A stretch of 47,283 nt of DNA, taken from positions 1 to 47,283 of the forward strand of contig CAOKET010000010.1 of the NCBI GenBank assembly GCA_948467605.1, given 5' to 3'. Shown piece after piece: positions 5,923 to 27,007 of this stretch; position 1 is the first letter of the stretch, and each line of letters opens with the position of its first letter. A program made the position numbers and the translations under genes. The DNA is from an uncultured Mycoplasmatota bacterium (GTDB lineage: Bacteria; Bacillota_I; Bacilli_A; RF39; UBA660). Under the pieces are notes generated by a model. That model saw only the letters and a list, made by a program, of their open reading frames with translations. It had not been told where the DNA came from and did not search any database.

Positions 5923-8027
5923 TATCTTTTCTTTTCCTTAACTTCGTAACATTCAATTATGTCAGATTCTTTAATATCATTATAGTTTTCGATAGTAATA
6001 CCACACTCTAACCCCGCTTTTACTTCTTTTACTGAATCTTTTTCTCTTTGTATAGAACCAATTTTTCCATCATATATAACAATACCATCTCTTATAACTC
6101 TAGCATTTGTATCTCTTTTAATAATTCCATCTATTACATAACTACCTGCAATATTCCCAACTTTAGAGAATTTATAAATCTTTCTTATTTCTGCTTGACC
6201 TAATGAGATTTCTTCAAATTCAGGGTCTAGCATACCTTTCATTGCATCCTCTATTTCTTCAGTTACTTTATATATTATGTCATAGAATCTTATATCTACT
6301 CCATATTGTTTTGCTATGTCTTTTGTTTTTGAAGTTGGTTTTACATTAAACCCGATTATTATTGCATTAGATGCATTTGCTAAAATTACATCACTTTCTG
6401 TAACTGTACCAGTTCCAGTACGGATCATTTTTACCTTTACACCCTCTACATCTATTTTTGATAGAGAGTTTTTTACTGCCTCTTCGCTTCCCTTTACGTC
6501 TGCTTTTAGAATTATATTTATTTCTTTTATTCCTTCTTTAATTTGAGCAAATAAATCATCTAGATTAATTTTTTGTTGTTTGTTATTTTTATTATCAAAT
6601 GCAAGTTTTCTTTGTTCCTCAACTACTCTTGCTTGTTTTTCTGTTTCAAAGGCCATAAATTTATCACCAGCAGATGGTATTGAAGTAAGTCCTGTTATTT
6701 CTACTGGTTGACTTGGATATGCTTCTACGATTTCTTTTCCCAGGTCATTTTTCATTGTACGAACCTTTCCATAACTAGTTCCTACTACAATAGGATCTCC
6801 TAATCTAAGTGTACCATTTCCAATTAGTAGGGTTACTATGTTTCCTATATTCTTGTCTGCTCTTGATTCAATTACTGTTCCTAACGCATATCTCGAAGGA
6901 TTTGCTTTATAGTTATTCATCTCTGATATTAAAAGTATGTTCTCTAGTAATTGATCTACACCCATACCAGTTTTTGCACTTATTTTAATGAATAATGTAT
7001 CTCCACCCCATTCATCAGGTGTAAGCCCACATTCAACCATTTCAGTCATGATTCTATCTGGATTTACTCCAGGTTTATCCATTTTGTTTATAGCAACTAT
7101 TATTGGAACATTAGCGGCTTTTGCATGGTCGATTGCTTCTCTTGTTTGTGGCATTATACCATCATCTGCAGCAACTATTATTATTACTATATCTGTTACA
7201 CTAGCACCTCTTGCTCTCATTTCAGTAAATGCTTCGTGTCCTGGGGTATCAATAAATGTAATTTTATTACCATTGTATTCTATTTGATAAGCGCCTATTG
7301 CTTGGGTAATTCCACCTGCTTCACCTAGTGCTACATTAGATTTTCTTATTGTATCAAGCAAAGTTGTCTTACCATGATCTACATGTCCCATTATTGTTAC
7401 AACAGGAGGTCTATTAACTAAATCTGCCTCATCATCTATTACTTCAAATTCTTCAAAGTTAGAAACATCTGTTGTTTCTTCTCTTTTTAAATCTTTACCA
7501 TATTCAATAGAAATTAAAGATGCTGTTTCAAAATCGATAGGATTATTTAAACCAAGCATAAGACCTAAAGTCATTAATTTTTTTATTAAATCTGTGCTTC
7601 CTATTTTCAAAATATCTGCAAATTCAGAAACTGTCATATTTTCTTTGTATAAAATGATATTTTCTTCTGTTACTTTATTTCCCATTAATTTATCTTTATT
7701 CTTATACATTGCTTTTTTTCTATTATTTAATTCTTCTTTATCTTTATTACTAACTACATCTTTCTTCTTAGTAAGTTTTTCAGATTTTACTGTGTCATCA
7801 ACTCTGATATTGGTTTTAGATATAATATTTTCAACTGTTGTTTCTAATTCGTCTTCATCATATTCTTCCTCAATTTCACTTGCAAAAGAGTTATCTAGCA
7901 TTATAACGTCATCGTCATTTAAAATAGAATTCTCATCAGTTACCCTTATCCCTAATTTTTTACATTCTTTTAAAACCTCTTCTACTTTTCTGTTAATATC
8001 ATTTGCATAATCTAATACACTCATCAT
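5922..8027 (-). CDS. infB: Translation initiation factor IF-2
   Basis: IF-2 is the GTPase that brings fMet-tRNA to the 30S subunit. It shows a short, acidic, lysine-rich N-terminal region, one IF2_N domain (TVSEFADILKIGSTDLIKKL), then the GTPase with GHVDHGKTT near residue 214, DTPGHEAF and NKMD, followed by domains II-IV. At about 701 residues it is a compact Firmicutes form. I place the start at the ATG at 8027 (or the adjacent ATG at 8024), because AGAGGTGG lies just upstream; the in-frame GTG at 8036 lies within that ribosome binding site. It follows ylxR by 41 bases and is coupled to the NUDIX gene below. Confidence 0.97.
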   Translation of the reverse strand: MMSVLDYANDINRKVEEVLKECKKLGIRVTDENSILNDDDVIMLDNSFASEIEEEYDEDELETTVENIISKTNIRVDDTVKSEKLTKKKDVVSNKDKEELNNRKKAMYKNKDKLMGNKVTEENIILYKENMTVSEFADILKIGSTDLIKKLMTLGLMLGLNNPIDFETASLISIEYGKDLKREETTDVSNFEEFEVIDDEADLVNRPPVVTIMGHVDHGKTTLLDTIRKSNVALGEAGGITQAIGAYQIEYNGNKITFIDTPGHEAFTEMRARGASVTDIVIIIVAADDGIMPQTREAIDHAKAANVPIIVAINKMDKPGVNPDRIMTEMVECGLTPDEWGGDTLFIKISAKTGMGVDQLLENILLISEMNNYKANPSRYALGTVIESRADKNIGNIVTLLIGNGTLRLGDPIVVGTSYGKVRTMKNDLGKEIVEAYPSQPVEITGLTSIPSAGDKFMAFETEKQARVVEEQRKLAFDNKNNKQQKINLDDLFAQIKEGIKEINIILKADVKGSEEAVKNSLSKIDVEGVKVKMIRTGTGTVTESDVILANASNAIIIGFNVKPTSKTKDIAKQYGVDIRFYDIIYKVTEEIEDAMKGMLDPEFEEISLGQAEIRKIYKFSKVGNIAGSYVIDGIIKRDTNARVIRDGIVIYDGKIGSIQREKDSVKEVKAGLECGITIENYNDIKESDIIECYEVKEKKR

Positions 8028-8068
8028 TATGACCACCTCTTTCTAATTTATTTTTACCTTTTTTAAGT

Positions 8069-8338
8069 TTATTCATTACTATCTAATAAATTGTCTAATT
8101 CATCAAATATTTTATCGTCAATTTCTACCTCTAGTATTCTATTTAATATTTTTGTTTTTCTAGCCTTATCAAACACTTGCCTATCTTTTTTTAAATAGGC
8201 CCCTCTACCATTAGATTTACCAGTTTTGTCTATCATGACTTCTTTATCAGGAGTTCTAACTATTCTAATAAGTTCATTTTTAGGTAATTTTTCTTTTGTT
8301 ATTACGCAACTTCTAAGTGGTATTTTTCTTTTATTCAT
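8069..8338 (-). CDS. ylxR: YlxR-family RNA-binding protein
   Basis: The 89-residue protein matches the YlxR (DUF448) family: PLRSCVITKEKLPKNELIRIVR at the N terminus and KSNGRGAYLKKD in the middle, the two conserved signatures. YlxR lies between nusA and infB in most Firmicutes and binds RNase P RNA in studied species. The start has GGGAGGTATCCT before the ATG. The gene is 11 bases after nusA. The ylxQ (L7Ae-like) gene that usually lies between ylxR and infB is absent; only 41 bases separate ylxR from infB. Confidence 0.93.
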   Translation of the reverse strand: MNKRKIPLRSCVITKEKLPKNELIRIVRTPDKEVMIDKTGKSNGRGAYLKKDRQVFDKARKTKILNRILEVEIDDKIFDELDNLLDSNE

Positions 8339-8349
8339 AGGATACCTCC

Positions 8350-9459
8350 CTATTTTATATTTATTCCCATACTTGAAGCATCGCTTCTTGATTTAACTTC
8401 TATTTTAAAGTGAGTTAATCTAGATGCTAGTTTTATATTTTGACCTTTTTTACCTATTGCTAGTGATAATTCATCGTCTGCTACTATTGCTAGTGCTTCA
8501 TTTGAGTCATCATTATCTATTAAAATTGTTACGTTTGTTGCTGGACTAAGTGCATTTTTAATAAATTCTGCATTGTTTTTAGAATATAATACTATATCTA
8601 TTTTTTCACCATTTAGTTCCTTTATTATATTATTTATTCTACTTCCTCTTTCACCAATACATGAACCAATTGGATCTATTCTAGAGTTATTAGAATATAC
8701 AGCGATTTTGCTTCTAGAACCTGCCTCACGCGCTACACTATATAACATTATAGTACCATCATTTAATTCTGGTATTTCAAGTTCTAATAATCTTTTTACA
8801 AATCCATAGTGACTTCTTGATAATAGTATTAATGGTCCTTTAGTAGTTGCTTCTATTTTTGAAACATATACCTTTACTGAACTACCCATAACTAGTTTTT
8901 CACCTGGAATAAGTTCTTTTTTAGGTAATACCCCTCTTGCTCTGCCAAGATCAACATAATAGTTCATAGCGTCTTCCATTGATAAAGTCCCTACCACTAG
9001 TTCATCTTGTTTATCTTTGTATTCATCTAGTATACTTTCTCGTTCTGCCTCTCTTATTTTTTGTGTTAATACTTGTTTTGCAGTTGATGTTGCAACTCTA
9101 CCAAAATCCTTTGGTGTTACTTCTTCTTTTATTACTTCTCCAACTTTTATTGTAGGATCTATTTTTTTTGCCTCTTCAAGTAATATTGGTTCAATAATTA
9201 CTTTTTCTTCTGTTTCACTTTCTTCAGTTTCCTCATCTTCATAAGCTTCTTCTTCTATTTTTTCTACTACAGTTTTAACAGAATATATTTTTATTTCGCC
9301 AGTTTCTCCGTTAATTTCTACCTCTCCATTAGTTTTACCATACATTCTTTTATATGCAGTTAAAAGTGCTAATTCCATTGCTTCTAATACTTTTTCTTTT
9401 AATATATTTTTCTCTGCTACTATAAAATCTAATGATTTTATAAATTCTTTACCGTTCAT
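8350..9459 (-). CDS. nusA: Transcription termination/antitermination factor NusA
   Basis: NusA binds RNA polymerase and nascent RNA and modulates pausing, termination and antitermination. The 369 residues contain the N-terminal polymerase-binding domain, an acidic loop (EEEAYEDEETEESETEEK near residues 67-84), an S1 domain (GTLSMEDAMNYYVDLGRARGVL), KH1 with GERGSRI, and KH2 with AIGKKGQNIKLA. No C-terminal acidic repeats are present, as usual in Firmicutes. The acidic loop inserted in the N-terminal domain seems longer than in Bacillus and may be lineage specific. AAAAGGAGGAAGAT precedes the ATG, which is two bases beyond the rimP stop. Confidence 0.97.
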   Translation of the reverse strand: MNGKEFIKSLDFIVAEKNILKEKVLEAMELALLTAYKRMYGKTNGEVEINGETGEIKIYSVKTVVEKIEEEAYEDEETEESETEEKVIIEPILLEEAKKIDPTIKVGEVIKEEVTPKDFGRVATSTAKQVLTQKIREAERESILDEYKDKQDELVVGTLSMEDAMNYYVDLGRARGVLPKKELIPGEKLVMGSSVKVYVSKIEATTKGPLILLSRSHYGFVKRLLELEIPELNDGTIMLYSVAREAGSRSKIAVYSNNSRIDPIGSCIGERGSRINNIIKELNGEKIDIVLYSKNNAEFIKNALSPATNVTILIDNDDSNEALAIVADDELSLAIGKKGQNIKLASRLTHFKIEVKSRSDASSMGINIK

Positions 9460-9461
9460 GT

Positions 9462-9710
9462 TTATCTTCCTCCTTTTTCCTTTGAACTTATATCTAAAAT
9501 ATATGTATCTTCAATAACATCTATTTTATCTAATATATCATTTATAATGTTTGTTGCTTCAACGCATGTGTCTAAGTCAACTACAACTTCTTTATCAATA
9601 ACTATTCTAAGAAAATAATTACTACCTTCCTTTTCATACTTTATTTCATCAACTATTATACCAACTTCAGATAATGGTTTTTCTATTTCCTCTCTTATCC
9701 TTTCTAGCAT
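9462..9710 (-). CDS. rimP: RimP-like protein reduced to the N-terminal domain
   Basis: RimP assists 30S maturation. This copy has only 82 residues, starting at MLERIREEIEKPL with AGGAGGTAAA just upstream; a longer frame from further upstream would run through a hairpin and lacks a ribosome binding site. The sequence follows the RimP N-terminal alpha/beta domain (YFLRIVIDKE, LDTCVEAT, YILDISS) and stops where normal RimP continues into SSPG and its C-terminal SH3-like domain. Family members are usually about 150 residues, so the whole second domain is missing. There is no sign of the missing half downstream, since nusA starts two bases later. The position directly before nusA supports the assignment. 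Confidence 0.85.
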   Translation of the reverse strand: MLERIREEIEKPLSEVGIIVDEIKYEKEGSNYFLRIVIDKEVVVDLDTCVEATNIINDILDKIDVIEDTYILDISSKEKGGR

Positions 9711-18212: not shown

Positions 18213-18235
18213 AGGGACTAAATTAGTCCCTTTTT
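18213..18235 (+). terminator. Terminator of the tiny gene
   Basis: AGGGACT (18213-18219) and AGTCCCT (18225-18231) form a 7-bp stem with an AAATT loop, followed by TTTTT. It overlaps the dinB stop codon on the other strand. Confidence 0.85.
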
Positions 18236-19404
18236 ATTTTGGTTGCATTTATAAAAATATCTTTGCCATATTTATTTTTTAAATGGTCTACTACCTTTTG
18301 TACTTCAGAAAAATCTTCGGTTTCATCATCAAAAAGTGATAATTGTTTTGACCTTTTTTCTGTAAAATTTGTAACTCTTACACCAATCAATCTTACCTTC
18401 TCATCTCCCATCATTGATTTTAATAATTGTCTAGCAATGCTATATATATCATGTGTTGTATTTATAGCATTATCAACTTTTTTTTGATGGGAATATACTT
18501 TAAATGAAGAGGTTTTTAACATAACTGAAACTGTATAGCAATAGTAATTCATACTTCTTAATCTAAATCCAACCATTTCACATAACTCTAATAATTTTTC
18601 CTCCAAAATAGGGATTTCATATATATCATATGGAAATGTTTCAGAATTACTAATTCCATCTTGTCTCTCTTCTTCATGAACTGGGCTATCATCAATGCCA
18701 TTAGCATAGCTTTTCATCATAATGCCTCTACTTTTAAAATGCCTTATTAGAAAGTTTATATCTGCATTTGCTAAATCACCGATAGTTTTTATATTAAATT
18801 TTTTTAATATATCAGCGCTCTTTTTACCAACCATGAATAAATTATCTACTGAAAGTGGCCACATTTTTTTATGTATTTCGTTCATAAATAGAGTGTGTAC
18901 TTTATTAGGTTTTTCGAAATCGGATGCCATTTTAGCACATAATTTATTTTCGGCAACCCCTATATTGACTGTAAAACCTAATTTTTCATGAATTTCTTTA
19001 CTGATTTTATATGCTAAAGTAATAGGATCTCCAAATAATTTATCAGTACCAGTCATGTCTAAAAAACATTCATCTATAGAAAACATTTCTATATCTGGTG
19101 AAAATTTACTTAAGTAATCATATAATTCATCAGAGTATTTCTTATATATGGAATAATCTGATGGTATAATAACTAAATTAGGGCATTTGCATCTTGCCTG
19201 ATATAAAGTTTCAGCAGTTACTATACCATATTTTTTAGCAACCTGACTTTTTGCTAAAACAACACCTTTTCTAGCACTCTCATCCCCACCAATAACTGAT
19301 GGAATAGTTCTAAGGTCTACCTTATATCCATTTTTTAATCTTTCAACTGCAGTCCAAGATAAAAATGCATTATTAACGTCTATATGAAAGATTATTCTTT
19401 TCAT
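18223..19404 (-). CDS. dinB: DNA polymerase IV, Y-family
   Basis: This error-prone translesion polymerase has 393 residues. The catalytic metal ligands are D9 in HIDVNNAF and D111-E112 in FSIDECFLDMTG, and the palm, finger, thumb and little-finger regions are all present. AALDD-like beta-clamp binding is suggested by QLSLFDD near residue 366, a typical clamp-binding motif. FHIDVNNAFLSW with asparagine in place of the usual MDxFFAS phenylalanines is a variant often seen in Firmicutes DinB/UvrX-like proteins. TTGGTGATAAT precedes the ATG. No LexA box was noticed in the short gap upstream. Confidence 0.94.
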   Translation of the reverse strand: MKRIIFHIDVNNAFLSWTAVERLKNGYKVDLRTIPSVIGGDESARKGVVLAKSQVAKKYGIVTAETLYQARCKCPNLVIIPSDYSIYKKYSDELYDYLSKFSPDIEMFSIDECFLDMTGTDKLFGDPITLAYKISKEIHEKLGFTVNIGVAENKLCAKMASDFEKPNKVHTLFMNEIHKKMWPLSVDNLFMVGKKSADILKKFNIKTIGDLANADINFLIRHFKSRGIMMKSYANGIDDSPVHEEERQDGISNSETFPYDIYEIPILEEKLLELCEMVGFRLRSMNYYCYTVSVMLKTSSFKVYSHQKKVDNAINTTHDIYSIARQLLKSMMGDEKVRLIGVRVTNFTEKRSKQLSLFDDETEDFSEVQKVVDHLKNKYGKDIFINATKIKRD

Positions 19405-19452: not shown

Positions 19453-19491
19453 AAAAAAATTTAAGAAAATAGTTATGCTTTTCTTAAATTT
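19453..19491 (-). terminator. Terminator of the three-repeat gene
   Basis: AAATTTAAGAAAA (19457-19469) and TTTTCTTAAATTT (19479-19491) form a perfect 13-bp stem, with the stop codon in the 9-base loop. On the minus strand it is followed by seven U. Confidence 0.8.
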
Positions 19492-20342
19492 GGTGTTTTT
19501 GGTATATAAGTTTTAATAACTTCGTATTTACCTTCAATCCCAGTTTCTACTAGTTGTATAATGTCATCATCGCTATATAAATCATTCTCTTTAACAGCAA
19601 CTACTGGAAAACAATTATCACCTATTGGTTTTTTTACAATAGATATTGTATCATCAAAGTTTTGTTTTAATATGATAATATCCTTTCGATTAGGTTTCTT
19701 GTCTAATTTGTCAATACTAATAAATCTAAGACTTGGTTCATTAGTAGGAGTTACAATATCTGTACCTTTTACACATATATTGTTCTTATCATATCCTGCA
19801 ACTACATGATAACTATTATTAATTACGCTTACACTTCTAACCTTACTTTCGCCATACTTTTTTATTAATTCTGAATCTTTATATTTATCTATAAGACGTA
19901 TAGTAGGACCATGCCATTCTACACTTCCATCAATTAAATATATAGATTCTCTAACTTGCTCTGTTTTTTTAAGAGTAATATTGTCAGTTTTAAAAGTTCC
20001 ATCAGCATTTTGTACCAGAATTTTTAGACTATCATTATTTTTAATATCAATCAAATCCATATCATCTTTAAATAAAAATTTTATTTCTGTTACTCTTTCT
20101 AAATGATTAATTTTATTATATCCACATTCTTCTATCAATTTAACATCTTCATTTTCATCTATTATATATATAATTGGCCCTATTTGTCGTTGAAACTCCC
20201 CAATTGAACTACTCATCATATAAGGAAAATTAGTAACGCTAAAAGTGCCATCATCATTTTGTCTAAGAACTCTTAAACTATCACAGTCTATCCTACGTTT
20301 TAAATTTATATCATCATAAAACAAAAAATTTATATTATCCAT
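19473..20342 (-). CDS. Unknown protein made of three diverged repeats
   Basis: I do not recognise the family. The 289 residues contain three copies of a unit of about 95 residues. Each opens with a strand of the type INFLFYDD / IKFLFKDD / LRFISIDK, continues to SLRVLRQNDDGTFS / SLKILVQNADGTFK / DIIILKQNFDDTIS, and closes with IDENEDVKLIEECG / IDKYKDSELIKKYG / SDDDIIQLVETG. The units start near residues 4, 88 and 205. There is no signal peptide or membrane segment, so it is probably cytoplasmic. GGAGGT precedes the ATG. Its promoter is preceded by a 31-base palindrome that shares its core with the site at the NrtR-like gene, so it is a likely target of that regulator. Confidence 0.7.
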   Translation of the reverse strand: MDNINFLFYDDINLKRRIDCDSLRVLRQNDDGTFSVTNFPYMMSSSIGEFQRQIGPIIYIIDENEDVKLIEECGYNKINHLERVTEIKFLFKDDMDLIDIKNNDSLKILVQNADGTFKTDNITLKKTEQVRESIYLIDGSVEWHGPTIRLIDKYKDSELIKKYGESKVRSVSVINNSYHVVAGYDKNNICVKGTDIVTPTNEPSLRFISIDKLDKKPNRKDIIILKQNFDDTISIVKKPIGDNCFPVVAVKENDLYSDDDIIQLVETGIEGKYEVIKTYIPKTPNLRKA

Positions 20343-20373: not shown

Positions 20374-20403
20374 ATTATACATGTTTATTATTAATAGTGT
20401 CAA
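20374..20403 (-). promoter_or_regulatory. Promoter of the three-repeat gene
   Basis: On the minus strand TTGACA (complement of 20398-20403) and TATAAT (complement of 20374-20379) are 18 bases apart. The palindrome 20407-20437 begins three bases upstream of the -35. Confidence 0.8.
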
Positions 20404-20406
20404 CCA

Positions 20407-20437
20407 ATATTTTAGTGTATATATTACACTAAAATAT
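20407..20437. promoter_or_regulatory. 31-base palindrome, probable NrtR-like operator
   Basis: Two perfect 13-base arms (20407-20419, 20425-20437) flank TATAT. The core is GTGTA-N5-TACAC, the same core as the site at 21108-21124. It lies just upstream of the -35 of the three-repeat gene and contains the stop codon of the NrtR-like gene, so it may also act as a transcript-end hairpin. Confidence 0.7.
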
Positions 20438-21097
20438 ATTTTTATCCTCTATTATATTGTCTTTAAACTTATAATATTTGGCTGGTTTACCGACTTTCTT
20501 TACACCACTATAATTTACTTCATCAATTAAATTCAAAGATAAAAATTTTTTTCTAAAATTTCTTCTATCTATTGTTTTATTTAATAATGTAGAGTAAATC
20601 TTTGTAAGTTGTGGCATTGTAAAATATTCTGGTAATAAAACTTTTACTATGTTGGATTTTAATATAATCTTTTTTAAATATTCAATTGAATCTTTAAGGA
20701 TTGTATTGTGGTCGTAGCCTAAATCAGGAAGTTCTGATAATTTAAACCATTTAATATCATCTGTATTTTCTATTAGCAAACTTTTATCATTATTTACAAG
20801 TGCTACATAGGTAATTGCTACCATTCTAACAATATTTGTTCTAGTTGGATTGCTATATATTCCAAATTGCTCCATATAAAAATCATTATTAGATATTTTT
20901 TCTTTCAATTCTCTTCTTATACCTGATTCAATATCCTCATCATTATATATTGCCCCACCTGTTAAAATCCATTTACCAGCATATGGTCCAGCGTGCTCTT
21001 TAACAAGTAAAACCTTTATACTACTATCCTCTACAGTAAAAAGAGATACAATACCATGTATTCCTTGTCTAGCATATTTTTTATTTAATATATCCAT
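20429..21097 (-). CDS. NrtR-like regulator: degenerate NUDIX domain plus winged helix
   Basis: The 222 residues combine an N-terminal NUDIX domain (1-145) with a C-terminal winged-helix domain (about 155-215: LPEYFTMPQLTKIYSTLL, RRNFRKKFLSLNLI, GKPAKYYKF). This is the NrtR architecture, transcription factors that sense ADP-ribose or related NUDIX ligands. The NUDIX box starts at G48 and reads E54...R62-E63-L64-K65-E66-K67; the last metal-binding glutamate is lysine, so it probably binds but does not hydrolyse its ligand, as usual in NrtR. It has a TTGACA/TATTAT promoter overlapped by a palindrome, which suggests autorepression. No NAD genes are nearby, so the regulon may not be NAD metabolism. 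Confidence 0.85.
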   Translation of the reverse strand: MDILNKKYARQGIHGIVSLFTVEDSSIKVLLVKEHAGPYAGKWILTGGAIYNDEDIESGIRRELKEKISNNDFYMEQFGIYSNPTRTNIVRMVAITYVALVNNDKSLLIENTDDIKWFKLSELPDLGYDHNTILKDSIEYLKKIILKSNIVKVLLPEYFTMPQLTKIYSTLLNKTIDRRNFRKKFLSLNLIDEVNYSGVKKVGKPAKYYKFKDNIIEDKNIF

Positions 21098-21107
21098 ACT
21101 TCACCTC

Positions 21108-21124
21108 TGTGTATTACTTACACA
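21108..21124. promoter_or_regulatory. 17-base palindrome, probable autoregulatory operator
   Basis: TGTGTA and TACACA flank a 5-base spacer. The core GTGTA-N5-TACAC matches the palindrome at 20407-20437. It overlaps the predicted start and the edge of the -10 of the NrtR-like gene, a position typical of repression. Confidence 0.7.
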
Positions 21125-21152
21125 TAATATCACTCTACACCTATTATGTCAA
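21124..21152 (-). promoter_or_regulatory. Promoter of the NrtR-like gene
   Basis: On the minus strand TTGACA (complement of 21147-21152) and TATTAT (complement of 21124-21129) are exactly 17 bases apart. Transcription would start near 21117, inside the operator. Confidence 0.8.
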
Positions 21153-21438: not shown

Positions 21439-22499
21439 TTAAATACTCTCATACCTACTTTCGTCATTTGCTAGTTCATATAACTCTTTCTCATCTCTAA
21501 TTATTTTAATTAATTCTTCTTTTGTCGGTAAATAAGTTAAATATTTGGAAGCATATACGTTTTTTATACTATCTCCTAAAGTCATTTCTACTATGGCATC
21601 ATCTTTATCTGCACAAAGTAGTATTCCTATAGGTTCATTTTATCCATCTATCATTTGAGTTTTTTATAGTAATTCACATACATTTGCATTTGCCCAATAT
21701 CTTGATGAGTAAGTTTTCCTATCTTTAAATCAATTATTACAAAACATTTCGCTAATCTGTTATAAAATATTAAATCTGGGTAATAATATTCTGAACCTAT
21801 TTTAATTCTTTGTTGACTAGATACATATGAGAAACCTCTTCCTAGTTCTAGTAAAAAATCTGTTAAATGTGATAATAATGCTTTCTCTAAATCTGTTTCT
21901 AAATAGTTTTTATTTTCCTTTAATCCTGCAAATTCAAAAATATATGGTGACTTTAGTATTTCTTCAGGATTTTTTTCAATAATTCCATTTTTTGATTCAT
22001 TTAAAACTGCTTCCTTATTTGGAGAAATTAAATATCTATCATATAACTTAGTGTTAATCTGTCTACTAAGTTCACGATATCCCCAATTAGATTTAATGGC
22101 TTCGAGTTCATAAAAATTTCTTTCTTCTTTTCTATCAAGTCTGATTAATTCTTGAAAGTGTGACCAAGATAATATGGTCGGCACTGCCGACCATATTGGA
22201 TATAAAGTATAAAATCTTCGCATTCTTCTGATACTAACAGAGGAAAAGCCACTACCAAATTCATTAGTAAGTTTAGAAGCCAATTCATCGATTATTTTTT
22301 TACCATAACTTTTTTTCGCACTATTTTCAGATAATTCGTAAGTAATTTTGCCAACATACCAATACACTTCTATCATAGTTGTATCTATATGTTTTAACAT
22401 TTTTCCCCTTGCAGTTATTATTTTGTTTCGTATATCTTGGTAAATGTTCTCTATTTTCATAAGTTCATTTTTATTACCTTCCATCGTTGCATTTTTCAT
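21439..22499 (-). pseudogene. DUF1016 (YhcG-type PDDEXK nuclease), frameshifted
   Basis: The intact part (22499 to 21651) carries the DUF1016 N-terminal domain (VEVYWYVGKITYELSEN-like helix, YGKKIIDELASKL, FSSVSIRRMRRFY, WSHFQELI) and the start of the PDDEXK nuclease (PDLIFYNRLAKCFVIIDLKIG). It then stops at NYYKKLK. Another frame carries on with NEPIGILLCADKDDA, LGDSIKNVYASKYLTYLP and ESI to a stop at 21439. Restoring one A in an A6 run (complement of 21656-21661) rejoins the frames, but an in-frame TAA remains a few codons on, so at least two lesions exist. The family is linked to phage defence or DNA repair in some hosts. Here it is probably dead. Confidence 0.85.
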
Positions 22500-22561
22500 T
22501 ATAATTTAAACACCTCCAATATTACTATTCGAGGTATTTTTTTATTTTCCTTTTAAATATT

Positions 22562-22584
22562 AAAAAAGCATGAAAATTCATGCT
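22562..22584 (-). terminator. Terminator at the end of the T4SS-like operon
   Basis: AGCATGAA (22567-22574) and TTCATGCT (22577-22584) form a perfect 8-bp inverted repeat (7 bp with a 4-base loop in practice); on the minus strand it is followed by UUUUUU. It lies at the stop codon of the last gene in the operon. Confidence 0.85.
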
Positions 22585-22942
22585 AATCATTTATTACATT
22601 ATTAAAGTCTGGATTAGATATTAGTTTAAGACAACTATTTACGCTATGTCCTGTTTCACTACTTTCATTTACATTTAAAAGATTAACTACCATTTTTACT
22701 AATCCTATTAAGAAGAATACAGCAACAGCAGCAATTATTCTTTTAATCATTAACCCTTGTACTTTTTTTCTGTCTTCATCTTTGCTTGTTATAACCATCT
22801 TTCCTAGGTCTATCATTGCAAGTATAATAAGCAATATTGGGATTGCTATTTGTATAATTGTTACAATTATACCAACTAAATTAACAATGTCATAAATTTG
22901 ACCATTTGGAGTGTCACAAAAATCTTGAAATAAAAAATACAT
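22583..22942 (-). CDS. VirB2-like small membrane protein (T4SS), copy 1
   Basis: The 119-residue protein has two or three membrane helices (about residues 22-45 and 65-90). The core is IIQIAIPILLIILAMIDLG, a polar loop TSKDEDRKKVQG, and IKRIIAAVAVFFLIGLVKM. The same core recurs in the 33810-34553 and 31855-33794 proteins. Small proteins with two helices and a basic-polar loop are the pattern of VirB2/TrbC pilin-like subunits, and the location at the end of a VirB3/B4/B6 operon supports that. There is no cleavable signal peptide. GAGAGGGGAATTT precedes the ATG. Pilin identity is inference from topology and context. Confidence 0.7.
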   Translation of the reverse strand: MYFLFQDFCDTPNGQIYDIVNLVGIIVTIIQIAIPILLIILAMIDLGKMVITSKDEDRKKVQGLMIKRIIAAVAVFFLIGLVKMVVNLLNVNESSETGHSVNSCLKLISNPDFNNVIND

Positions 22943-23000
22943 ATAAATTCCCCTCTCTTAATGATTATATATTATAACGATATGTCAAAATTTGTCAAGT

Positions 23001-23711
23001 TTATATTTGATTGTTTTTTGCTATTCTTCTTTTTAATATAAAGCATATAATAATTATAACGATTATACTTGGTACTGATATAAATAATATTAATTTCCAA
23101 TTTATTACCTTTTTTAGTTCAATTTCTATTGGTTTATTATACGCATTGTCTTTATTTATTATCCATGTATATTTTCCATTATTAACTTTATCAGCATTAC
23201 TAATTACTACTTCATAATCCCCACTTGTTGTTATATTTATTACTACTTCATCTAACATTTCATAGTATTTAAAACAATTAAATGATGAATCAGTATTTAT
23301 TTTTATGTTTTTATCTTCTATTTTAACGCTAAAATTGTCATAACAATAATTTGCAATTTTTGACAAATTATAGTTATCATGCTTGAATTTATATGAATAT
23401 TTTAATCCTACCTCATTAGATGTTGAAATCTTTTCCTTTTTGTAGTACTCTACTCCATCTTCTTTTTCAAATGTATAGTAATTTTCTGAGGAGCCATTTA
23501 ATGAACCAGTGTGTATATTATAATTATCATTCATAAATTCATTTACACTATACCCCCAGTATAGATTAGAAGGCTTATCCCATTCTATAGAATTATCCTG
23601 TTTAAGATATGTTATTTCTTCAATTTGTTTATTGTCTATATTAATATTATAGTTTACTGTGCAACCAGTCAATATAAAAACTGTAAGTAATAAGGTTGTT
23701 ATTTTTTTCAT
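23001..23711 (-). CDS. Lipoprotein with a C-terminal membrane segment (T4SS operon)
   Basis: The 236-residue protein starts with a lipoprotein signal peptide ending in LTGC (cysteine 17), so it is attached to the outer face of the membrane. A second membrane segment (about 205-226, LILFISVPSIIVIIIICFIL) ends in a basic tail KRRIAKN. The region between is extracellular. No family was recognised. It sits between the CHAP-domain hydrolase gene (11 bases away) and the VirB2-like gene. A structural or VirB7-like role in the secretion complex is possible but rests on position only. GGAGGGCTAAGC precedes the ATG. Confidence 0.75.
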   Translation of the reverse strand: MKKITTLLLTVFILTGCTVNYNINIDNKQIEEITYLKQDNSIEWDKPSNLYWGYSVNEFMNDNYNIHTGSLNGSSENYYTFEKEDGVEYYKKEKISTSNEVGLKYSYKFKHDNYNLSKIANYCYDNFSVKIEDKNIKINTDSSFNCFKYYEMLDEVVINITTSGDYEVVISNADKVNNGKYTWIINKDNAYNKPIEIELKKVINWKLILFISVPSIIVIIIICFILKRRIAKNNQI

Positions 23712-23722
23712 GCTTAGCCCTC

Positions 23723-26700
23723 CTATCTATAATATTTAGAGTTAATACAATCTGCATATGAATTTGTTTGTGGTATGTTTCCATTATCTAATGCTTGTTG
23801 TAGATATTCAATTCCAAGTTTTTCATCTCGTCTAGTCATAAGTGTATTTACCATATCTTTTGTATAGTATTTAAACACATAATTTGGGTGTCTAGCATAT
23901 GTGCCCGTTGTAAATAGGTCAAATGTCATTTCATTCATATTAAAGTAATTACCAGTAACCGCACCTGCTCCTACTATATACTGACTTAATGCACACCATA
24001 CATCGTGATTACCACCTGTTTTATATGCATTTAAAATTTCTTTTATCATTTCTCTCGAACCATTTTCACCATATGTATATGCTAATCTCATTAGTGAATG
24101 TATCTTTTCGTCTGTATTAAGTTTATCTAGAAGGCCTGCTTCTATTATTAATTTTAATACGAAATCTCTATGTTCATGATAAGTCTTTATCCATGTATAT
24201 AATGCTACCCATCTTGGGACTTTACAACCATCACATAACTCATAACTATACTTTACTCCATTTATCTGTGCATTAAATGATTCACCATGTTTTGCAATAT
24301 ATAATCCTGGATCAACTGATACCCATTCAGCTTTTTCTAGATTATCCCATGTAACACTTACTACTTCAGATAGATATTTTGGCGTAAGCATATTACTATT
24401 CATTATTTGTTCTCCGCCTTCAGTATATGTAAGAAAGTTATAATATTTTATTTTAGATTCCATGCTACCATTTCTTTTAAATTCATTTATTATGTATTGT
24501 GCAACACTATTGTCATCATCTCTAAGTAATTGTATATAACATTGGAATTTGTAGCCATCCCATCCTGCATTTTTCATTTGGTCATATGTTAGCGTACGCC
24601 TTTGCCAACAACCATTTTTTTCGCAATTTTTAGATGCTACTGAGTGATTATAACCATTGTTATAAATTAAACTTCTAGCGCTATTGCCATATATTCCTAG
24701 TTTTATAAACGATTCGCTTATAGTTACTGTTGTAGGTGTTACTTCTTCTACTATTGCAACATGACCATAACCATTACTTAAATCTTTCCAAGATACAATT
24801 GATCCCGGTTTTGCTTGTAGAGGATCTCTAACCACTTTAAAATTGTCTTTATCTTTGTTTACTGAATCACACCAGTTTCCACCATTCCCAGCATATGTCC
24901 AATTATAATCGCTTCCTGCATTTGCTAAAATTTCTCTTACTCTACCAAGTGCATACCATGGACATTCACCATAATATATATTAATTCCATTATCCCAATA
25001 ACCTGAATATGAAGGTGCTGATACTCTTTGCTGAAATCCATTTGAATCTACTTGTGCAAGACCAGAACCAGTTGTTGTTGATTGAGAATTATTATGTCCA
25101 TATTCCCTTAAATAGTATGTTATATACTCATATGTCGAAAATATTTCCATTATTTGTGATGTTTTAGCAGCTTTATCTTTAATTTTTTGGGTTTCTATTT
25201 GTTCTTTTGTCCACTCATTAAATTTTGAGTTATATTCACTATAAAATACACCATATAGTTTTTCACTATACATCTTATCTTTATCAGGTTCTTTGTTTTG
25301 TCCAATTGATTCTTTTCTTAAAATATTATCCTTTATAAGTATTGTTTCATTTAATGCTTCTTTATATTGTTCTTGATTTAATACTCTATTTATAGATTGT
25401 AAATAAAAGTTTCCATCTTTATCTGCAACTGCTGGTCTTCTGCCTTCTGTTTCACCTAATATTTCCATAACTACATGTTTTGTTATTATTTTTCTTGTTT
25501 CTTCATCAAATTTAAAATTTTTAGGATTTATTTTATCTTGATATTTACTCTCATCAAATCCATAAATAAATTTGTTTACTGTTTCTTTTGTCATGAATTC
25601 ATTAAATTGTAGTGTATTGTTCTCATATGCATCAAGAATTGGATCAACTATTTTAGTTTTTACTTCGCTTTCACTAATTCCTGAACATAAATAATAGTGT
25701 ATTGTTCCTTCCTCATCTTTTATTGGTGTTACATCTGTACATTTTATATTAGGTACTGCTTTTTCAATACCACATATCCATCTAACATTTAGTTTGTAGC
25801 CCTTTCCATTTGAGCCACTTTTATAAAGACAATGTTTGCCCCCATTTGTGTCAACATAATAAGATTTAGGACCAGGATATGGTACCCCAGCACTTTTACC
25901 ATCTGTTAATACTGGTGTGGTTGCTTCACATGATGTTTTACAGGTACCTTCTATATCATTTCCTTCCTCATCTTTTTCACAAGTTTTTGTTTCCTGATAT
26001 TCTGTATATACACTTTCTGATAAATTGCATGTATAGTCATCTGGTATACTACTTTCTTCATACCAGATTAAATCTTTTGCCTTACAGTTACTCTCTGGTG
26101 TAAAATTAAATGTTGAGTATAAAGAACCTTCACTAAATATATCATCTAGTGCACTTGTTGCTGATGCTACATTATCAAATGATTTATACCATGATGTTAA
26201 TTTTTCTACTAACTGCGTTATTATTCCAGTTATACCAGAAATTATTCCCATTGAAATTAAACTACCAAATTTATCTATATTCTCCTGTAAATTATCTTCA
26301 GTTTCATCTTTTTCATTTTCAATTTTAAAACCTAAAATATTATTTTGATCTAGTGATGAGTATGTATTGGCAAGTGAGGCTGAGACTAATACATCTGGAT
26401 ATAAACCTAATATCTTTCCACCAATTATTTTTTGTGTCTCATTACTTTTATAATAATTATATGAACCAGTTGATACATTATATACATTGCCATTTGTACA
26501 CGCCTTTATAATATTATCTGGATTATATGTCTTTAAAGAATGTGTATTATCAACATTTCCATTATAGTCGCATTCATCATTTGCATATGCTCCCATATAA
26601 TCACGTTCACATGCGTTAGCATCTAAATAGGAATTATTCATTCCACTACTTGTTTGTATAGTAGAACTACTATTTGCCCTTCCTATAGATGTATTTTCCA

Positions 26701-27007
26701 TTCTCTTACTTAATGCTTTATACCACAATATTTGTGCTTCATTACTTGCCTCTATTGATGTATGCCATAATCCAGAATCAGCTAAATGTTTTTTTAACAA
26801 TTCTTCGGATTCTTCTGGTATTGTCAAATAATTATTACCACCTTCGTACACTTCTACTCCTTCATATCCGTATTTAGTAATTATCTCTGATGTTGTGGTA
26901 TTTTCAAAATTTACTGCAAATATTGGAAATATAATCAAGAATATAATTGCAAATATTGCAATTATTATTCCTTTTTTGGCACTTTTACTATTAAATATTA
27001 TATCCAT
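23723..27007 (-). CDS. Large membrane-anchored protein with CHAP peptidase/amidase domain
   Basis: The 1094-residue protein has one N-terminal membrane segment (about 14-32), a long cysteine-rich extracellular region, and a CHAP domain at about 670-790. The catalytic cysteine is near residue 682 in YYGECPWYALGR, and the histidine near 749 in GYGHVAIVEEV. CHAP domains cut peptidoglycan, so it is the VirB1-like wall hydrolase that Gram-positive T4SS need to cross the wall. A further 300 residues follow, with no recognised fold and a hydrophobic stretch near residue 248-263 in the N-terminal half (ISMGIISGITGIITQL). Both N-terminal and C-terminal parts are unusually long. GGGGTGTTAGCAAT precedes the ATG; VirB4 ends 30 bases upstream. 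Confidence 0.85.
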   Translation of the reverse strand: MDIIFNSKSAKKGIIIAIFAIIFLIIFPIFAVNFENTTTSEIITKYGYEGVEVYEGGNNYLTIPEESEELLKKHLADSGLWHTSIEASNEAQILWYKALSKRMENTSIGRANSSSTIQTSSGMNNSYLDANACERDYMGAYANDECDYNGNVDNTHSLKTYNPDNIIKACTNGNVYNVSTGSYNYYKSNETQKIIGGKILGLYPDVLVSASLANTYSSLDQNNILGFKIENEKDETEDNLQENIDKFGSLISMGIISGITGIITQLVEKLTSWYKSFDNVASATSALDDIFSEGSLYSTFNFTPESNCKAKDLIWYEESSIPDDYTCNLSESVYTEYQETKTCEKDEEGNDIEGTCKTSCEATTPVLTDGKSAGVPYPGPKSYYVDTNGGKHCLYKSGSNGKGYKLNVRWICGIEKAVPNIKCTDVTPIKDEEGTIHYYLCSGISESEVKTKIVDPILDAYENNTLQFNEFMTKETVNKFIYGFDESKYQDKINPKNFKFDEETRKIITKHVVMEILGETEGRRPAVADKDGNFYLQSINRVLNQEQYKEALNETILIKDNILRKESIGQNKEPDKDKMYSEKLYGVFYSEYNSKFNEWTKEQIETQKIKDKAAKTSQIMEIFSTYEYITYYLREYGHNNSQSTTTGSGLAQVDSNGFQQRVSAPSYSGYWDNGINIYYGECPWYALGRVREILANAGSDYNWTYAGNGGNWCDSVNKDKDNFKVVRDPLQAKPGSIVSWKDLSNGYGHVAIVEEVTPTTVTISESFIKLGIYGNSARSLIYNNGYNHSVASKNCEKNGCWQRRTLTYDQMKNAGWDGYKFQCYIQLLRDDDNSVAQYIINEFKRNGSMESKIKYYNFLTYTEGGEQIMNSNMLTPKYLSEVVSVTWDNLEKAEWVSVDPGLYIAKHGESFNAQINGVKYSYELCDGCKVPRWVALYTWIKTYHEHRDFVLKLIIEAGLLDKLNTDEKIHSLMRLAYTYGENGSREMIKEILNAYKTGGNHDVWCALSQYIVGAGAVTGNYFNMNEMTFDLFTTGTYARHPNYVFKYYTKDMVNTLMTRRDEKLGIEYLQQALDNGNIPQTNSYADCINSKYYR

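Follow-up and report, generated by a model that had tools for sequence, protein, structure and literature searches.

The regulator encoded in the window (47,283 nucleotides of contig CAOKET010000010.1, from the genome of an uncultured Mycoplasmatota bacterium) appears to belong to a Nudix-fold repressor branch devoted to deoxypyrimidine nucleotide genes, with its own regulon shrunk to the regulator and a single orphan gene; we put the probability of this reading as a whole at roughly 75%. The 222-aa protein would be a ligand-responsive repressor that binds GTGT-N7-ACAC, equivalently GTGTA-N5-TACAC, as a dimer, blocking its own promoter at one site and bringing the adjacent gene under its control at a second. 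In the bacterial family of this genome, regulators of this branch, whose operator usually lies inside the -35/-10 spacer, would repress the production and salvage of deoxypyrimidine nucleotides through the genes for thymidylate kinase, ThyX, thymidine kinase, dCTP deaminase, CTP synthase, an HD dNTPase-like protein and AAA_28 kinases. The repressor is presumably released when a (deoxy)nucleotide or nucleotide-sugar occupies its dead Nudix pocket. The genome from which the window comes also has a paralog on contig 3, which would control the genes for an AAA_28 kinase and a HAD phosphatase-like protein. The features of the focal gene pair are as follows.

21147-21152, minus strand: regulator -35, TTGACA (TGTCAA as read forward), from the sequence
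21124-21129, minus strand: regulator -10, TATTAT (ATAATA as read forward), from the sequence
21108-21124, no strand: predicted operator 1, TGTGTATTACTTACACA (core 21109-21123), immediately after the regulator -10
20429-21097, minus strand: NUDIX and winged-helix regulator, 222 aa, NrtR/AraR family (Pfam, PDB relatives, AlphaFold/Foldseek)
20465-20638, minus strand: winged-helix domain with recognition helix DRRNFRKK (residues 177-184), aligned to BtAraR
20407-20437, no strand: predicted operator 2, 31-bp palindrome (core 20415-20429), before the partner's promoter
20398-20403, minus strand: partner -35, TTGACA, from the sequence
20374-20379, minus strand: partner -10, TATAAT, from the sequence
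19473-20342, minus strand: partner gene, encoding an orphan 289-aa repeat protein (relatives sought, none credible)

A sequence-only reading of the window had proposed that one palindromic core stands at both promoters of this pair, and its description proved accurate. The core GTGTA-N5-TACAC occurs with zero mismatches at 20415-20429 and 21109-21123 (chance expectation 0, from 100 dinucleotide shuffles of the window), and the proposed extension of the first copy to 31 bases is an exact palindrome, ATATTTTAGTGTA-TATAT-TACACTAAAATAT, at 20407-20437. Judged by sequence and placement, the palindrome at 21108-21124 does lie at the regulator's own promoter, which has a 17 bp spacer, and directly follows its -10. 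The longer palindrome precedes the neighbour's promoter (18 bp spacer) as had been stated; this second site overlaps the last base of the regulator stop codon and lies 11 bp upstream of the partner -35. A scan of the 1,379,095 bases (1.38 Mb) of the window's genome (44 contigs, 91% complete) for unrelated copies of the core found no further exact copy beyond the two at the focal pair. Allowing one mismatch gave 34 further places, of which only C3:61958, beside a paralogous regulator, has an operator-like placement; the others, nearly all within coding genes, were rejected one by one. Raw counts of the bare core in any single genome are close to those of a reversed control and hence uninformative; the signal is carried by placement and promoter context.

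By its sequence and its modelled fold, the regulator is an NrtR/AraR-family protein. Pfam recognises a NUDIX domain at the N-terminus (PF00293, E 5e-10) and an NrtR winged helix at the C-terminus (NrtR_WHD, PF21906, E 4e-19, 68.8 bits against a cut-off of 27), and the AraR_C domain (PF19368) also scores above its threshold (38.7 bits, cut-off 23.8). BtAraR (5bs6, E 9e-26) and SoNrtR (3gz5, E 7e-22) are the closest solved structures by sequence, and an AlphaFold model built from an alignment of 25 relatives (pLDDT 83) gave BtAraR 5bs6 and SoNrtR 3gz6 as its top Foldseek matches, with TM about 0.8. Together with these domains, a Nudix box that reads REXXEK, as opposed to REXXEE, and has lost a catalytic residue bears out the earlier description of a NUDIX-winged-helix protein with a disabled box; an intact box (REXXEE-X-G) was present in 0 of the 84 family homologs in which it was sought. 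For its GTGT half-sites BtAraR uses Lys179, Asn181, Lys184 and an intercalated Arg180, and we read the spacing GTGT-N7-ACAC from the base-pair numbering of its operator (PMC4666351). Since the equivalent residues of the focal regulator (R178, R179, N180 and K183, conserved in 75-81 of 84 homologs) and the GTGT-N7-ACAC pattern both match BtAraR, recognition of the two palindromes by this protein is plausible. On this comparison the operator is of the AraR type and hence not new, and it is the regulon that would be new.

Matches to the regulator at E <= 0.001 were found in 258 of 386 family genomes, a figure that takes in distant Nudix relatives, and a search of general genome contigs yielded only three distant Bacteroidetes homologs. 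From 80 fetched loci and the window we assembled 84 full-length homologs; the family sample was selected for resemblance to the focal protein, and most of its genomes are draft assemblies. Sites matching at least 9/10 operator positions lie upstream of the regulator in 36/84 homologs and just 3' of the regulator gene in 34/84, against a background of 44/992 gene starts, a set that still includes regulated partners. The sites are kept next to orthologous regulators, two-site layout included, which was the conservation that the sequence-only reading had asked for. In relatives the palindrome takes the form GYGTA-N5-TACRC and usually falls within the spacer of the regulator's own promoter, the aligned sites reading TTGACA-a-GTGTAtaaaaTACAC-a-TATAAT such that the operator fills the distance between -35 and -10; a second copy immediately precedes the ribosome-binding site of the gene that follows. 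The arrangement differs in the focal gene and in its ortholog L071, where the operator comes directly after the -10. Many homologs are without a recognisable operator (for example L065, L067, L078, L079 and a ribosomal-gene-linked group). A separate regulator clade adjoins rpsL-rpsG-fusA (L115, L120, L122, L125, L127 and L128), often with a prepilin-like gene in between, and in it the second operator is mostly absent.

The targets of the family were read from operators both beside and away from regulator genes, a division made by hand from coordinates. The promoter-embedded pattern TTGACA-N0-2-GYGTA-N5-TACRC has 36 matches in the 386 family genomes and 0 in a reversed control, and in a scan of the order the genomes returned all belong to this same family. 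Twenty-seven of these matches are at regulator genes and nine elsewhere, the latter including three at tmk, two at AAA_28-CYTH genes, one at tdk-dcd (in one genome, that of a 58%-identical ortholog) and one at an operon whose second gene is PurA-like. A scan for GYGTANWWWNTACRC in 36 genomes gave 65 forward matches versus 21 in the control, a ratio inflated for cis sites, not for trans sites, by the bias of the scan toward genomes with regulator sites. Nineteen of the matches are away from regulators, among them six at tmk (six genomes from two genera, g13 and g33, with differing placement), two at thyX, two at pyrG and two at the PurA-like operon, both in one genome. The trans targets come from only a few genera: tmk from g13 and g33, thyX from g33, pyrG from g13 and tdk-dcd from g146. 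Sites at L175 and L179-L183 lie inside genes or beside unrelated genes and were taken as chance.

Beside the regulator, the most frequent partner is a histidine phosphatase; others are an AAA_28-CYTH kinase-like protein, thymidine kinase, an AAA_28 kinase with a HAD phosphatase-like protein, an HD dNTPase-like protein, a dNMP-kinase-like P-loop protein (no Pfam match) and the unnamed families c65 and c66. The substrates of the commonest partners (histidine phosphatase and AAA_28-CYTH) are uncertain, AAA_28 also covering NadR-like kinases. The c65 and c66 proteins form operator-led families of about 200-285 aa (L107, L116, L176, L202, L061, L080 and L193), and such a partner was found once away from any regulator; they are likely part of the same pathway. 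Enzyme names were assigned by Pfam and NCBIfam (dTMP kinase, ThyX, CTP synthase, thymidine kinase, dCTP deaminase and a dGTPase-like HD protein), and the named target enzymes are successive steps on the route to dTTP. Sites and targets together make it probable that this NrtR branch represses (deoxy)pyrimidine nucleotide synthesis and salvage. The suggestion that the regulon may be new is thereby sharpened: the regulon can be named at the family level, as mainly deoxypyrimidine nucleotide genes.

The window's genome holds four NrtR-winged-helix genes. The contig-3 paralog carries two GYGTA-N5-TACRC sites, GCGTAAAAAATACGC and GTGTAAAAAATACGC, and is followed by the AAA_28 kinase and the HAD phosphatase-like gene. 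That operator-led AAA_28 kinase (C3:62188) is the sole thymidylate-kinase-like match, below the Pfam cut-off, in this 91% complete genome, in which a thymidine kinase was likewise not found, an absence that this completeness leaves unproven. No nucleotide gene in the window's genome carries the exact sites of the focal regulator, and the link to nucleotide metabolism runs via the contig-3 paralog. The copy on contig 16 has no recognisable operator; its recognition helix is the same as the focal one, so cross-binding to the focal sites is possible.

The partner gene sets the focal locus apart from this family pattern. Of the three repeats described earlier for its product, the first two clearly resemble each other (score 113 versus 28 +/- 5 for shuffles), but the third is weak, its alignment being exceeded by 8/500 shuffles with repeat 1 and by 95/500 with repeat 2. 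No relatives of the 289-aa protein were found in Pfam, NCBIfam, PDB, viral contigs or plasmids, and none that is credible in the 386 family genomes, where four weak matches belonged to unrelated proteins (a signal peptidase and GNAT-like, Clp-like ATPase and D-Ala-D-Ala ligase-like proteins). An AlphaFold model built without an alignment was meaningless (pLDDT 33). The partner is lineage-specific and not a typical target of the regulator family. On the same strand, 68 bp downstream of it, lies a gene for a Y-family DNA polymerase (ImpB/MucB/SamB; 18223-19404), and the gap between the two contains, as seen by eye, a terminator-like inverted repeat, ATTTAAGAAAA/TTTTCTTAAAT, followed by a T-run.

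We read the focal locus as a putative offshoot of the nucleotide branch, its target swapped and its ligand possibly altered. A variant of the preferred reading, compatible with it, holds that the pair is a repurposed module that has lost the nucleotide ligand and controls the orphan effector only, perhaps with an origin in a mobile element or a stress response; we regard this as a serious possibility, one that we would nonetheless bet against. The focal regulator is alone among the 84 homologs in having Glu34 at the position of the ligand-binding Arg34 of BtAraR, and this loss of a basic pocket residue means that the focal ligand may differ. The tree places it together with L071 and L072, on a long branch, and the orphan partner takes the place of the histidine phosphatase found at L071. 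Upstream of the regulator, on the other side of the pair, the window encodes a DUF1016/YhcG nuclease, pilin-like and lipoprotein-like proteins and a 1094-aa CHAP-domain protein (21651-27007), of which the DUF1016, pilin-like and CHAP genes are reminiscent of a conjugative element. However, orthologs that retain their ligand also give long branches, and the operators and recognition helix are perfectly preserved, which indicates that selection on the regulation continues.

Less well supported is the reading of the focal protein as a canonical NrtR of NAD metabolism that senses ADP-ribose, with NAD genes missing by accident of genome reduction, an explanation that we consider unlikely. Its best NCBIfam model is indeed the ADPR-responsive NrtR (NF050029), though at 86 bits against a cut-off of 400. 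A homolog with an intact-looking Nudix box is also present in a 636-kb uncultured phage (LR756504.1; L242:4977-5639, 7020-9653), where an exact GTGTATAATGTACAC stands right before NMN-adenylyltransferase-like and NAMPT-like genes (identities read from sequence), with a 9/10 operator copy 42 bp upstream of it. This locus is a candidate phage NAD regulon, and since a huge phage thus has this operator in front of NAD-salvage-like genes, a regulon is not defined by its operator alone. Against the NAD explanation, the operator-led genes found in the family include no recognisable NAD gene, and the window's genome has a separate NrtR-type gene on contig 9, directly upstream of a NAD-kinase-like gene and downstream of a histidine phosphatase (L241:850-2482). 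Its recognition helix is LDPAFRRI versus DRRNFRKK in the focal protein, so the NAD-type regulator is a separate gene, and with the exact sites confined to the focal pair the earlier observation that this pair comes without NAD genes stands. Pairs similar to that on contig 9 occur at L065, L067 and L097.

A pentose regulator like BtAraR, with the same helix and operator and an arabinose-type ligand, is improbable. BtAraR is the closest solved structure and shares the GTGT-N7-ACAC operator, and the equivalents of its arabinose-binding residues Arg34, Arg86 and His131 are widespread in the homologs (R34 in 69/84, R86 in 83/84 and H130 in 81/84). The aligned SoNrtR, an ADP-ribose binder, nevertheless has the same residues, so they are not arabinose-specific, and the focal protein itself lacks the full set, having Glu34, Arg86 and His130. 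Moreover, we recognised no gene of pentose metabolism in the family's operator-led set, as read from sequence with Pfam applied to a subset. Least credible of all, and largely refuted by the pattern of conservation, is that the palindromes arose by chance or act as RNA hairpins (terminator or attenuator) and not as operators: the 31-bp palindrome, at the 3' end of the regulator gene, does fold as an AU-rich hairpin (the stretch gives -12.6 kcal/mol), but no U-run follows it on the transcribed strand. In relatives, moreover, conservation is confined to the letters GYGTA/TACRC and leaves out the flanks, and the usual position of the site is within the promoter spacer, which is not transcribed.

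Returning to the preferred reading of a deoxypyrimidine repressor, an operator in the promoter spacer of tmk, of tdk-dcd and of the regulator's own gene points to transcriptional control of dTTP supply. In the literature searched we found no description of such control and no regulator of the Nudix or NrtR type for thymidylate or deoxynucleotide genes; the NrtR-family regulators described there control NAD or pentose metabolism. Taken to its full extent, the proposal would be that an undescribed Nudix-fold repressor branch senses a deoxynucleotide (e.g. dTTP, dUTP or a dTDP-sugar) and sets dTTP synthesis transcriptionally across a large family of small-genome bacteria, with the focal pair an offshoot driving an orphan effector, a tentative picture to which we give slightly less than even odds. 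It provides a concrete ligand class to screen for the regulator branch and testable functions for its unnamed partners, namely the AAA_28-CYTH kinases, the c65/c66 families and the focal orphan.

A functional analogue of such a repressor would be NrdR, the ribonucleotide-reductase repressor tied to dNTP supply; its protein is unrelated (zinc-ribbon/ATP-cone) and its DNA box different. SoNrtR and other NrtR proteins of NAD metabolism (PDB 3gz5/3gz6/3gz8) share the fold, the autoregulatory palindrome and the degenerate Nudix box, but differ in their NAD-gene targets, their ADP-ribose ligand and their operators (that of MsNrtR being GTTTTCGA-N7-TCGAAAAC; PMC6800001), whereas the focal branch appears to target deoxynucleotide genes. 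Closest is BtAraR (BT0354), the arabinose repressor of Bacteroides (PDB 5bs6/5dd4/5deq; PMC4666351), which has the fold, the domain order, the recognition-helix residues, the GTGT-N7-ACAC operator and the degenerate Nudix box in common with the focal regulator, yet is only 28% identical to it and controls arabinose genes.
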